Both the position numbers and the translations under genes were made by a program. Below, in pieces: positions 1-39,318 of a stretch of DNA of 64,000 nucleotides; within the stretch, counting starts at the first letter, position 1, and each line of letters opens with the position of its first letter. This DNA comes from Desulfurispirillum indicum S5 (GTDB lineage Bacteria > Chrysiogenota > Chrysiogenetes > Chrysiogenales > Chrysiogenaceae): assembly GCF_000177635.2 (NCBI RefSeq), contig NC_014836.1, forward strand, positions 2,864,378 through 2,928,377. Reading direction: 5' to 3'. Under the pieces are notes generated by a model that searched no databases, had not been told where the DNA came from, and saw only the letters and a list, made by a program, of their open reading frames with translations.

Positions 1-128
1 GTGAAATACCAGATGAACCAAGCATCTGCAATCAGCACTGCTTCCGCGCGGCAAACATCAGTAAAATAATGCCTTAAGCTAAGACGACCAGATGCGAAAC
101 TTCAGTTATTAACTGATCATTGAAAAAC

Positions 129-262
129 CAGAAAGCAGCAAGCAATTGAAAAATGCTCAGGTGCAAGGCGCGGGCAAAGCGAGGAGCGAAGCGTACCCCC
201 TGTACGTCGCAGTGACGAGTGATGACCGGCAACGCCGCAGATGAGTGTTTTTCAGCAGCTTG
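129..262 (+). repeat. Dispersed MITE-like repeat, copy upstream of uvrA
   Basis: Shares long blocks with the copies at 6709, 24337 and 36010: the AATTGAAAAATGCTCAGGTG block, the GTACGTCGCAGTGACGAG block, the CAACGCCGCAGATGAG block and the end TTTTTCAGCAGC. The left terminus is degenerate here. It ends about 15 bases before the uvrA start codon, so the uvrA leader is largely repeat-derived. No gene is seen in bases 1-277. Confidence 0.8.
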
Positions 263-6708: not shown

Positions 6709-6812
6709 CAGCTTGCAGAAATACTTCAAAATACGCAGGCAATTGAAAAATGCTCAGGTGCAATGCACGCGACGGCGAGCAACGCCGCAGATGAGGGTTT
6801 TTCAGCAGCCGG
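6709..6812 (+). repeat. Dispersed MITE-like repeat, internally deleted copy before ffh
   Basis: It starts CAGCTTGCAGAAATACTT and ends TTTTTCAGCAGCC, matching both ends of the complete 151-bp copy at 36010. About 45 bases are missing from the middle. It ends 16 bases before the ffh start codon, so it contributes the ffh leader. Confidence 0.8.
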
Positions 6813-8217: not shown

Positions 8218-8324
8218 CAGGCTGCGCAAACGCACTCACCTGGCGCATACCGGGAGAGCAGCCTGTTGAAAAATGTTCAGCTGCAAGGCGTCCACATCCT
8301 GCAGATGGGCGTTTTTCAGCAAAC
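8218..8324 (+). repeat. Degenerate dispersed repeat copies between ffh and rpsP
   Basis: CAGGCTGCGCAAA starts directly after the ffh stop codon. A second segment at 8259-8324 begins CAGCCTGTTGAAAAATG, contains GCTGCAAGGCG and GCAGATGGGCG, and ends GTTTTTCAGC. Both resemble the ends and short body of the family element. Confidence 0.65.
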
Positions 8325-23960: not shown

Positions 23961-24050
23961 CAGGCTGCTCAAAGAGGCCCATCTGCTGCGTTGCCCGTCA
24001 TCGCTCGTCACTGCGACGTACAGGGAGTAGATTCGCGGGTACGCTTGGTT
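23961..24050 (-). repeat. Dispersed MITE-like repeat, inverted partial copy
   Basis: It starts CAGGCTGCTCAAA and continues CATCTGCTGCGTTGCCCG and TCGTCACTGCGACGTACAGG, the reverse complement of the right half of the family. Similarity fades after about 24030. Confidence 0.75.
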
Positions 24051-24336
24051 GAGCGTGAAGCTACCGAATCGGTTTTCTGTTGCACGGCATATTTTGTTTC
24101 TTTGCTCCTTTTGACTCGCCAAAAGGAGCGCAAAAGCGACCCCCAGTGTTGTCCTTTTCAGCCGCCCGCTTGCCTGGAACTGGGGACCGCAAACAACCGC
24201 CATCCATGGCTTTTGGTTTGCGGTTGCCGCCATCGTGGCGTCAACCCTGCGGGTCTACCGCGTTCCAGTCAGCGCGTCCTGGCTGGGACAACACACGGGG
24301 GAGAGGCAGAAGAAGTCAGTTCCCTCCAGTGAACAT

Positions 24337-24454
24337 GCAGGCAATTGAAAAACCTACAGGTGCAAGGCGCCCGCAAAGCAAGGAGTGAAGCGTACTCCCT
24401 CGTTGCAGTGACGAGCGATGACGGGCAACGCCGCAGATGGGGGGCGGCAGCCTG
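24337..24454 (+). repeat. Dispersed MITE-like repeat, copy abutting the phoB stop codon
   Basis: It contains GCAGGCAATTGAAAAA, GGTGCAAGGCGC, GTTGCAGTGACGAGCGATGA and CAACGCCGCAGATG, and ends GGCAGCCTG. The next bases, CTAG, include the phoB stop codon (TAG on the minus strand). The left terminus is missing. Confidence 0.8.
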
Positions 24455-35829: not shown

Positions 35830-35933
35830 GACGTGACTCCTTCTTCAGAGTTTCCTTGCATGGGCGAAATGGAGTTTCAAACTTTTCCCCATAGCGTACC
35901 TTGTACTATAAAACAACACCTTCAGGAGAGTAC

Positions 35934-36322
35934 ATGAAGAAACTGCAGATCTTCGGGGTTGGCTGCGCCAGGTGTCGCCAGCAAGTGGAAAACGCCCACA
36001 GAGCCATAGCAGCTTGCTGAAATACTTAAAAATACGCAGGCAATTGAAAAATGCTCAGGTGCAAGGCGCTCGCGGAGCGTGGAATGAAGCGTACTCCCCG
36101 TACGTTGCAATGACGCGCGACGGCGGGCAACACCGCAGATGAGGGTTTTTCAGCAGCCTGATAGAGGAAAGCGACGCCAACTATGAACTGGAAAAGATCA
36201 CCGATATAAACGCAATCATCGGAATGGGTATCATGATCGCCCCGGGAATCGCCATTGACGGTGAGCTGAAATCCACCGGCAAACTCCTGTGCACAGAAGA
36301 GATTAAAAAACTGCTGACATGA
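35934..36322 (+). pseudogene. Thioredoxin_3-type redox protein gene interrupted by the mobile element
   Basis: ATG 35934 follows AGGAGAG and encodes MKKLQIFGVGCARCRQQVEN. The reading frame runs into the 151-bp element at 36010. After the element the family C-terminus resumes: NYELEKITDINAIIGMGIM, then APGIAIDGELKSTGK and TEEIKKLL. Deleting the element plus one ATAG joins HRAI to EESDANYEL in frame and gives a 77-aa protein with a C-x-x-C site (CARC). Such small disulfide proteins often accompany permeases of the type at 38 kb. As written the gene is inactive. Confidence 0.9.
36010..36160 (+). mobile_element. Complete 151-bp MITE-like element with 4-bp target duplication
   Basis: The ends are CAGCTTGCTGAAA and, inverted, CAGGCTGCTGAAA (11 of 13 match). 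ATAG flanks both sides (36006-36009 and 36161-36164). There is no coding capacity, so transposition would need a transposase elsewhere. The body carries the AATTGAAAAATGCTCAGGTG, TACGTTGCAATGACGCG and CACCGCAGATGAGGG blocks seen in the other copies. The interrupted gene proves insertion. Confidence 0.88.
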
Positions 36323-36471
36323 CCCGATATCAGCAGTTCAGCCTGCCTCTCTCTACAGGCAAATTGATTTGACCGCTTCTCCCCCCCTGAACTATTGTGT
36401 GCCAAAGGAATGAATTGGAGTTCAGCCTCGATTCCACAGCCAGGAATTATCCAAGTGTGCAAGGAGAGAAC

Positions 36472-37497
36472 ATGGCCAAGGACCTGACCAGCTCCGCCAT
36501 TGATCGACAGAACATCCTCAACAACCCTTATGCCTTGGCTGAAATTGAAAAAGCGGCGGGTATTCAGGGTATTCCCTTTGAAGGCAAAAACGTTGTCCTC
36601 AAGGAGCAGGTGGCGGAGTTCTTTGAGGTAACTGTTCGTACTATCGAAAATTACCTGGAACACCACACTGAAGAACTGGCGCAAAATGGTTATGAGGTCA
36701 TCAAGGGTAACCGTTTGAAAACATTGAAGGAGTCCATTCTCGCATTGGGTGTTCACGAAACGAATTTCGGGAACATATCCAAGACTCCTCAGCTGGGAGT
36801 TTTCGATTTTCGAGCCTTTCTCAATCTTGCCATGCTTATTTCGGAAAGCGAGCGGGCAAAGCTGCTGCGCCAGGCTATTTTGGACATTGTGATAGACACC
36901 ATCAATCACCGTACTGGTGGTGGAACCAAATACATCAACCAGCGGGATGAGGAGTTCCTGCACTCCGCCTTCATCGAGGAAAACTATCGCAAGCAGTTTA
37001 CCGACGCCCTGATGGATTGCGTGGCAATGGGCAACTTCAAGTATGCAATTTACACAGACAGGATATATGTCAGCATATTCCGTGAAAAGGCACAGGAGTA
37101 CCGTAAAATCCTGCGCCTGGGGCAAAAGGACAAGGTGCGGGATACCTTGTATTCCGAGGTACTGGATCTGATCGCATCCTATGAGTGTGGTCTGGGGGAT
37201 GCGCTACGTAAGGCAGCCGACCAGGTTGGCAGAAAGCTATCGGTCGGCGAAGTGGATGCCCTGTTCAACGACTTTGCGAATCAGGCGCACTGGCGTCCCT
37301 TGATTGAAAAGGCGCGTTCGAAGATGGCCAGCCGTGACCTGGCCTTCCGGGATGCTCTCCATCTGCAGCTCAAGGAATATGTAACTCCGGTACAGCGGGA
37401 TGAGTTCGAACGCTTTCTGGGTGAAAAAAGCAAGGAACTGTCCGAGCGTCTGGAAGAGTCCAGAGATGTCATGAAGCGCCTGAAAGAGCGTGGTTAA
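36472..37497 (+). CDS. RhuM-like DNA-binding protein, presumed antitoxin of the Doc pair
   Basis: The 341-aa protein has an N-terminal helix-turn-helix-like region (LKEQVAEFFEVTVRTIENYL, residues ~45-64). A RhuM/KilA-like middle follows (FDFRAFLNLAMLISESERA, then QAILDIVIDTINHRTGGGT). The C-terminus is helical and charged. ATG 36472 has AAGGAGAG upstream; the frame stays open 25 codons earlier without a good site. The stop TAA shares its last A with the Doc ATG (TAATG), so the two are coupled. Its role as antitoxin and autoregulator is inferred from the arrangement. The order resembles other RhuM/Fic pairs. Confidence 0.75.
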   Translation: MAKDLTSSAIDRQNILNNPYALAEIEKAAGIQGIPFEGKNVVLKEQVAEFFEVTVRTIENYLEHHTEELAQNGYEVIKGNRLKTLKESILALGVHETNFGNISKTPQLGVFDFRAFLNLAMLISESERAKLLRQAILDIVIDTINHRTGGGTKYINQRDEEFLHSAFIEENYRKQFTDALMDCVAMGNFKYAIYTDRIYVSIFREKAQEYRKILRLGQKDKVRDTLYSEVLDLIASYECGLGDALRKAADQVGRKLSVGEVDALFNDFANQAHWRPLIEKARSKMASRDLAFRDALHLQLKEYVTPVQRDEFERFLGEKSKELSERLEESRDVMKRLKERG

Positions 37498-37943
37498 TGG
37501 CATTGGTCTATCTTACGCTGGATCAGGCCATAGAGGTCCATGCCAAAACAGTTGAAGTGAGTGGTGGTGGAACCCTTGGGCACCTGGAGCTTGGCAAGCT
37601 GGACAGTGTGCTTCAGAATATCCAGAACGATGACTACTACCCAACATTCGAGGATAAGCTCACCCACCTGTTCTTTTGCGCCTGCAAGTTCCACTGTTTT
37701 CAGGATGGGAACAAACGCATTGCCATAACCCTCTCTGCGCAGATGTTGTTGTTAAACGGCTACTTGTATTGTGCCAGCAGCTTTATCCGAGAAATGGAGA
37801 ATATCAGCTACCACGTGGCTGCCGGGAATATTGGCAAAGAACTCCTGAGGGAGCTCATTGCAGCCCATCTGGCCGAGGAATCCGACAGCGAGGAGCTGAA
37901 ATTGAAAATATGGCATGCTATTTCGGGAAGCCTTCATAACTGA
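37497..37943 (+). CDS. doc: Doc-type Fic family toxin
   Basis: The 148-aa protein starts MALVYLTLDQAIEVHAKTVE and carries the Fic core HCFQDGNKRIAITLS near residue 61, with a Doc-like Lys (DGNKR) instead of the Gly of AMP-transferring Fic enzymes. Doc phosphorylates EF-Tu. The usual partner is the small antitoxin Phd; here it is a 341-aa DNA-binding protein. The HPF position reads HCF. The start overlaps the upstream stop. Confidence 0.85.
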   Translation: MALVYLTLDQAIEVHAKTVEVSGGGTLGHLELGKLDSVLQNIQNDDYYPTFEDKLTHLFFCACKFHCFQDGNKRIAITLSAQMLLLNGYLYCASSFIREMENISYHVAAGNIGKELLRELIAAHLAEESDSEELKLKIWHAISGSLHN

Positions 37944-37985: not shown

Positions 37986-38525
37986 TTATTTCTTTCCCCC
38001 TCCCTCCAACACCGTAAAGCTTTCGCGGAACCAGCGATCCATGATAATGGCAATGACAATAAACACTGGCAGGGTCACCAGGGAGCGCACAATGGTGAAC
38101 TGCAGCCCCAGAAAGGTGATTTCAAAGCCCAGCATGGGCAGCTTCATGGTGGAGAAGGCCCCGATATACACAAAGATATTGCGCACACTGGTGCCCTTTT
38201 TCCACATGAGATAGACGATAGGAAAGGCCACATAGAGGGGTCCGGCCTGGAACATGGCCAGCAGCACCATCCACAGCATGGAGATGAGCCCGGCGTCCTG
38301 CCCGGTGTGGCGCTGGACAAAATCCCGGGGAATCCACACATCCATCAGTCCGATGAGAATAAAGACAGCCGGCAGCACGGAGAGGACCTCCAGCAGGGAG
38401 TCGCCAAAACTCAGCCCAATCTGCACTCCGGAATTCCAGTCCAGCAGATGGGAGAGCCCAACGCCCAGGATAAAAAGCAAAATCACCCCAAGGCTGCGGC
38501 GATGCTGTGCCAGGTAGGCGCTCAT
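37986..38525 (-). CDS. Half-size permease, second gene (DUF318/ArsP-like)
   Basis: The 179-aa membrane protein has about four TM helices. SVLPAVFILIGLMDVWIPRD, then HTGQDAGLISMLWMVLLAM and AGPLYVAFPIVYLMWKKGTS, resemble the ArsP_1/DUF318 permease half. MSAYLAQHRRS is taken as the start; the frame is open far upstream over the neighbouring gene. It overlaps its partner by four bases (ATGA-type). Substrate is unknown. Confidence 0.7.
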   Translation of the reverse strand: MSAYLAQHRRSLGVILLFILGVGLSHLLDWNSGVQIGLSFGDSLLEVLSVLPAVFILIGLMDVWIPRDFVQRHTGQDAGLISMLWMVLLAMFQAGPLYVAFPIVYLMWKKGTSVRNIFVYIGAFSTMKLPMLGFEITFLGLQFTIVRSLVTLPVFIVIAIIMDRWFRESFTVLEGGGKK

Positions 38526-38998
38526 AGCATCCCCCACAGCAGCCACATGAGCACCCCGATCACCAGGGAACCCACAAAGCTCAGACCATTGCGGGCCAGG
38601 GCTATGCGCCAGCCAAAGTACTGCCGCTCCAGGGGGAGAGTCACCACCCCCACCATCATCAGTGACGTGACGAAGACGGCGATAATGGGATAGGCAACGC
38701 CATTGTTCAGCAGGAGCGCGGCGATGGGAAAAGCTACAAAGCCAGGCATCATGACCACCGCTCCCAGCAGGGCGGCTCCAAGGTAGGCTACCAGGCCGGA
38801 AGTCTGCCCAAGCCACCTTTCGATGGAAGCGGGGTCAAGCAGACTGAGTGCTATCGCAAGAGGAGCCAGTATGGCCAGCAGCGGCGGCAGGAGATTGGCA
38901 AACATTCTGCCGCCTTTGACAATACCCTCGCGGGTGCGGGAAAAATTGACGATGGCGCTGATGAGAACACACAACACCGTCATACTATAGAGCAGCAT
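38522..38998 (-). CDS. Half-size permease, first gene (DUF318/ArsP-like)
   Basis: The 158-aa membrane protein has four TM helices and the diagnostic MPGFVAFPIAALLLNNGVAY and TSLMMVGVVTLPLE. In one-chain relatives two such halves are joined, so the pair probably forms one transporter. MLLYSM at 38998 is preferred over a start 12 codons earlier. Some relatives export organoarsenicals; here the substrate is unknown. Confidence 0.7.
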   Translation of the reverse strand: MLLYSMTVLCVLISAIVNFSRTREGIVKGGRMFANLLPPLLAILAPLAIALSLLDPASIERWLGQTSGLVAYLGAALLGAVVMMPGFVAFPIAALLLNNGVAYPIIAVFVTSLMMVGVVTLPLERQYFGWRIALARNGLSFVGSLVIGVLMWLLWGML

Positions 38999-39318
38999 AA
39001 TGCACCTTTGAGAAATACGTATGCCAACGGGCATCTGCCATAGCTTTACTCCGAAACATCAAGGACATCAAGAGGCTGACTGATGCGTTACTATACCACT
39101 TGGAGCTTGCACACTCCTTGACGGGGAGGCACCGAAAAAAGCTCACCAGCTCCATTAAACATATTTTCTTCAAAGAGCTTAAATATATATGGCGTTTTCG
39201 CCATTAAAACTCATGCGCCTATCTTACAATGCTTTATATTGAAAATCTCATGCGCATTACCTTCCACTTCTCCATATAACAGGTATATTTCATTATGGCC
39301 TTTTATGCATACTTCTTC
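38999..39318. other. AT-rich gene-free upstream region
   Basis: I find no coding sequence between the permease start and the promoter at 39319. Short AT-rich stretches could host regulators, but no clear inverted repeat is seen. Confidence 0.5.

Follow-up and report, generated by a model that had tools for sequence, protein, structure and literature searches.

The window, i.e. the whole stretch of DNA analysed here, comprises the final 64 kb (64,000 nucleotides) of the single-contig genome of Desulfurispirillum indicum S5 (2,928,377 bases; phylum Chrysiogenota). On its plus strand, a gene for a protein of the Thioredoxin_3/ArsE family is split into two parts. The 5' part (35934-36009) carries a CxxC site as codons 11-14 and terminates in the sequence ATAG, and the 3' part (36165-36322) is free of further stops and frameshifts. 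As it stands, the gene opens with ATG at 35934 and runs for 28 codons before it meets a stop within the intervening sequence. When this sequence and one ATAG were removed in silico, a frame of 77 codons ending with TGA at 36320-36322 was obtained, as the original prediction had claimed, and the rejoined product of 77 amino acids matched the Pfam family Thioredoxin_3 with 68.9 bits (cut-off 24.8) and the NCBIfam family TIGR00412 (MTH895/ArsE-family thioredoxin-like) with 77.9 bits (cut-off 62).

The empty form of the gene, for which a search had been recommended, exists both in D. indicum and in its relatives. An intact paralogue at 399714-399941 (G000:C1) is 72% identical and aligns without a gap across the insertion point, and six aligned homologues from relatives (35-44% identical) likewise continue through it without a gap. 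In the paralogue and in these six homologues, nothing is inserted between HRAI and EESD, and no intact homologue containing the sequence was found. The thioredoxin-like gene at 35934-36322 is a pseudogene, broken by insertion of the element, and annotators should treat it as such. The insertion probably was a recent event, because the remainder of the broken gene is still open and in frame, and the closest other copies of the element share 99% identity with it. Directly downstream, at 36397-37943, there are a RhuM-like ORF and a Fic/Doc-like ORF, both named by eye from the sequence, which possibly form a toxin-antitoxin or defence pair. They are followed on the minus strand (37986-39034) by two overlapping ORFs resembling the halves of a permease, where a frameshift may be present.

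The inserted element

Within 35931-36330, ATAG occurs at exactly two places, 36006-36009 and 36161-36164, which as left and right copy of a target duplication on the plus strand flank the sequence at 36010-36160; the 151-bp length, the exact duplication and the boundaries of the original prediction were thereby found to be correct. The element starts with the outer left terminal inverted repeat CAGCTTGCTGAAATA (36010-36024, plus strand) and finishes with the reverse complement of CAGGCTGCTGAAAAA, the right terminal inverted repeat (36146-36160, read on the minus strand). A search of the genome for the terminus with at most one mismatch gave 126 matches, and the reversed control pattern gave none in the same genome. 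With 151 bp, the element lies within the size range of 50-500 bp of non-autonomous mobile elements (MITEs) lacking a transposase gene; the ORFs overlapping it are short and none encodes a transposase. Together with the target duplications and the dispersed copies described below, this makes the element very probably a MITE with IS5-type ends. Its target ATAG deviates by one base from the usual YTAR. ATAG likewise flanks both ends of a deltaproteobacterial copy (L293), indicating that this variant of the target is tolerated.

MITEs as a kind are already known, and this family appears to be undescribed in the sources searched. No element-like DNA was found in the plasmid and phage collections, and the sole match of a literature search for the terminus sequence was an unrelated paper on Borrelia. 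In their general plan, the ERIC and Correia repeats are similar, being small, palindromic, dispersed, of roughly similar size, mostly intergenic and equipped with arms able to pair in RNA, but they occur in other hosts, and their termini and target sites are probably other than those of the D. indicum element. For both of these repeats, RNase processing is known (PMC10969869). Compared by description, the Chunjie MITE of Geobacter uraniireducens is likewise short and non-coding, with several dozen copies of which one lies inside an operon, but its full length is 235 bp instead of 151 bp (PMC10969869).

Dispersed copies and IS5-type ends

The genome of D. indicum contains at least 40 dispersed copies of the family (E up to 5e-33), and among the matches listed the three closest copies are 99-100% identical and located at different places, suggesting recent movement. 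In addition to the copy in the thioredoxin-like gene, the window harbors a decayed copy (119-262, plus strand), a copy with an internal deletion joining family positions 1-63 to 107-149 (6709-6810, plus strand), a fragmentary copy (8257-8321, plus strand) and a partial copy (23961-24029, minus strand). At G000:C1:552758-559556 (L034), five copies whose flanks are identical are embedded in an array of small genes for coiled-coil-like products (about 110-136 aa). These were rejected as separate insertions, as a tandemly repeated gene carries them and they probably multiplied along with it, and they were collapsed to one in the count of independent copies because of their identical flanks.

Identical 4-bp flanks were present in 8 of the 35 independent copies, compared to a mean of 2.35 when the right flanks were shuffled among the copies (p about 6e-4; 59 of 100,000 shuffles reached 8). 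Further copies with matching flanks, which the original prediction had proposed to look for, are thus present, and its claim that the family moves as a unit is supported by these perfect duplications and by the dispersal. In the other 27 copies, including L003 with 99% identity (GCAA/CTGA), the duplication is imperfect or absent, which requires decay or inter-copy recombination as an explanation. A YTAR motif was found on the left of 20 and on the right of 13 of the 35 copies, compared to 0.14% of window positions. Matching flanks were also present in G002, which belongs to the same family, in 7 of 13 copies (2.8 shuffled; p 0.0016). A Methylomirabilota genome (G061) showed a weaker excess (9 of 28, 4.8 shuffled; p 0.02), and a deltaproteobacterial genome (G060) had 3 of 28 (0.9 shuffled; p 0.05). 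At the search sensitivity used, the family was found only in D. indicum and G002 among 59 genomes searched, which suggests horizontal arrival or loss.

The ends of the element are much more widespread. When GTDB genomes were scanned for YTAR followed by CAGGCTGCTGAAAAACYC, at least 119 contigs matched, and those listed include Acidobacteria, several proteobacterial classes, Dehalococcoidia, Nitrospira, Spirochaetes, Bacteroidetes and others. Several of these matches are elements of 99-176 bp (MITEs) with perfect CTAG, TTAG, CTAA or TTAA duplications, most of which resemble the D. indicum element in their ends only. The locus thereby offers a clear-cut insertion, in a phylum of which few genomes are available, that is linked to same-ended MITEs across many bacterial phyla. 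In Candidatus Nitrotoga, a transposase comprising DUF772 and DDE_Tnp_1 domains (NF033581 IS5 family, 264 bits) comes directly after the same end; the opposite end of this element was not found on its contig. Two plasmid-borne relatives of the Nitrotoga element are bounded on both sides: on the Bradyrhizobium plasmid pBoOM27, an IS5-family transposase lies between perfect CAGGCTGCTGAAAAAG ends with TTAG/TTAG outside, and an ISPst12-type element has CAGGCCGTTGAAAAA ends with CTAG/CTAG outside. Such insertion sequences of the ISPst12/NF033581 type share with the D. indicum element the termini, CAGGCTGCTGAAAAA or CAGGCCGTTGAAAAA, and the 4-bp YTAR duplication. They encode a DUF772 and DDE transposase of about 360 aa, whereas the D. 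indicum element is non-coding and only the ends are common. Since autonomous elements thus have the same ends and the same YTAR duplication, and YTAR is the target duplicated by IS5 (PMC10359306), the ends of the element belong, as judged from sequence comparison, to the IS5 family.

The structured core

The element contains a second, imperfect end, CAGGCAATTGAAAAATGCTCAGGTGC, which begins at element position 28 (window 36037) and forms pairs with the right end along some 26 positions. With this inner left arm (36037-36062, plus strand) begins a core (36037-36160, plus strand) that recurs in at least two other major bacterial groups. It includes a central hairpin, AAGCGTAC-TCCCC-GTACGTT (36087-36107, limits approximate, plus strand), with compensatory changes between lineages. 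Elements in the Methylomirabilota genome follow the same plan, with 75% identity over 116 interior bases and tens of copies, and those of the deltaproteobacterial G060 match the Methylomirabilota version by 68-75%. Of 147 genomes around G060, 84 were matched by a covariance model of the core, often with at least 24 scored candidates per genome. Rfam 15 covariance models matched nothing in the window at the gathering score, and four core loci were likewise without a match at E up to 1. This more conserved inner structure, the YTAR consensus and the non-independence of the copies at 552-559 kb go beyond the original prediction.

We compared the conservation of the regions in three genomes, each with its own consensus; G002 was aligned but left out of the means because its consensus gave no recognisable inner-arm motif. 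Mean identities to the consensus for the left arm, right arm and outer left 27 bases were 98%, 98% and 85% in G061; for left arm, right arm and outer left end they were 98%, 97% and 58% in G060 and 94%, 96% and 82% in D. indicum, in copies found via the core and therefore biased toward conserved cores. When G060 was searched again with the 74-base middle alone, the arms still reached 88% and 93% and the outer end 57% (random about 40%, 9.5/24), the outer end being scored without gaps so that some decayed ends are under-rated. Many G060 copies retain the core though the outer left end is gone, and in the middle-only search about 10 of 30 copies combine two preserved arms with an outer end at the level of random stretches. 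In five G060 loci (L281, L282, L295, L298 and L301), a further common sequence, CGCTCGCTATGCGTGTT or a close variant of it, stands ahead of the core, giving the impression that a different module has taken the place of the left end. Core-only copies, such as the one at window 24331-24454 (plus strand) and L028, L049, L060, L200 and L161, begin near the inner left arm; some have YTAR on the right and none a duplication on the left. We did not take the inner arm for an insertion end, as the short copies starting there were inspected for a 4-bp duplication and showed none.

Pairing was analysed with 20 cores from three lineages, which were hand-picked to include copies with changed arms and are not a random sample. 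Standard pairs made up 97.0% of the cells (shuffled mean 90.2%), changes on both sides were found in 11 of 32 pairs (shuffled mean 6.2), and 49 cells were changed on both sides (shuffled mean 14.9). None of 500 shuffles was as high in these statistics, although relatedness of the sequences inflates this comparison and, of the four helices, two are supported by few pairs. The signal disappeared when the partner columns were displaced by one to three positions. In G060 alone, with 33 unpicked cores, double changes were observed in 7 pairs and 21 cells (shuffle maxima 6 and 15). RNAalifold gave almost nothing when all 101 cores were aligned together, probably owing to misalignment between the lineages, and separate folding per lineage worked: the fold was clearly deeper than in column-shuffled alignments for the Methylomirabilota core (-68.7 vs -26.5, minimum -36.4) and the deltaproteobacterial core (-21.5 vs -4.6, minimum -15.0), and less clearly so for the Chrysiogenota core (-13.4 vs -4.5, minimum -15.2). 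On the strand given, there were 48 G-U cells and 8 A-C cells in a fixed geometry chosen with that fold in view, and this excess suggests RNA of that strand.

These data bear on a reading that adds to the MITE interpretation and does not replace it, namely that selection maintains the inserted core as a structured RNA or DNA element; the family would then be partly domesticated like ERIC and Correia repeats, and mobility would be only its means of spread. We hold this reading tentatively, as somewhat short of probable. It is consistent with the arms at 94-98% identity beside an outer left end at 58-85% in three genomes, with the same trend in the middle-only search, with the compensatory changes and the G-U excess favouring RNA, and with the wide spread across genomes. 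Conversely, the arms may be conserved through serving transposition in the source copies, and quasi-palindrome correction during replication can produce paired changes without selection, which is why we put forward retention of the core by selection as a hypothesis and not as a result. A rough ORF-based survey placed most core copies between ORFs and gave an even orientation relative to the neighbouring genes, the latter also speaking against this reading. A regulatory 3' or 5' position was thus sought in this survey and not found, and no regulatory role is indicated by position. Somewhat more doubtful still is the full proposal of a structured element that is shared across phyla, has not been described before and probably acts as RNA of the given strand; this core would have spread via borrowed IS5-type ends and been kept by hosts after decay of the outer end, in genomes without the transposase. 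If the core is truly retained by hosts, the family would provide a natural experiment on selfish repeats turning into host RNA or chromosome elements in a culturable organism. The structured core and the missing transposase are the part that deserves follow-up.

The moving enzyme

For the insertion itself, a DDE transposase of IS5 type would paste the 151-bp element, with its terminal inverted repeats of about 15 bp of the CAGGCTGCTGAAAAA type, into a 4-bp target that is usually YTAR and here the variant ATAG, and the target would be duplicated on gap filling. The insertion broke the Thioredoxin_3/ArsE-like gene, with the intact, 72%-identical paralogue remaining. From the shared ends we infer that the D. 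indicum copy was moved by an IS5-family transposase supplied in trans. This enzyme has probably since been lost from D. indicum or was only briefly present, because no such gene was found in the present genome. A transposase type with matching termini, which the original prediction had suggested to search for, and with the same target duplication was thus encountered in other genomes but not in D. indicum. No DUF772 transposase (IS5/IS1182-type, PF05598) was detected in D. indicum, G001 or G002, with Nitrotoga and the Bradyrhizobium plasmid as positive controls, and none in eight other core-rich genomes, some of which probably are MAGs whose repeats may have been lost in assembly. A cognate transposase in the same genome is usual for an IS5-derived MITE, but is not required.

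The lack of DUF772 in D. indicum, the two searched relatives and the eight core-rich genomes would also fit a MITE that was moved in D. indicum by a transposase of another family with similar ends and a YTAR target, e.g. an unannotated one. We consider this unlikely in view of the identity of the terminus over sixteen bases and the same target duplication in autonomous IS5-family elements. Moreover, DDE_5 (IS701-type), tried as such a mover, was rejected because it is also absent from D. indicum. A chance match of the ATAG pair, with the sequence as a long-standing native component of a degenerate locus, has next to no probability: a given 4-mer pair matches by chance about once in 210, but this reading is refuted by boundaries that are the family termini in dozens of copies, by the exactly restored frame and by homologues without the sequence.

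All 16 DDE_Tnp_1 matches of the D. indicum genome derive from a 930-bp IS5-like element with unrelated ends, GAGCTTGTCCATAAAT, which was rejected as a partner since these do not match those of the MITE. The copies of this 930-bp insertion sequence (e.g. L041-L056) are about 97-100% identical, and it is possibly still active.
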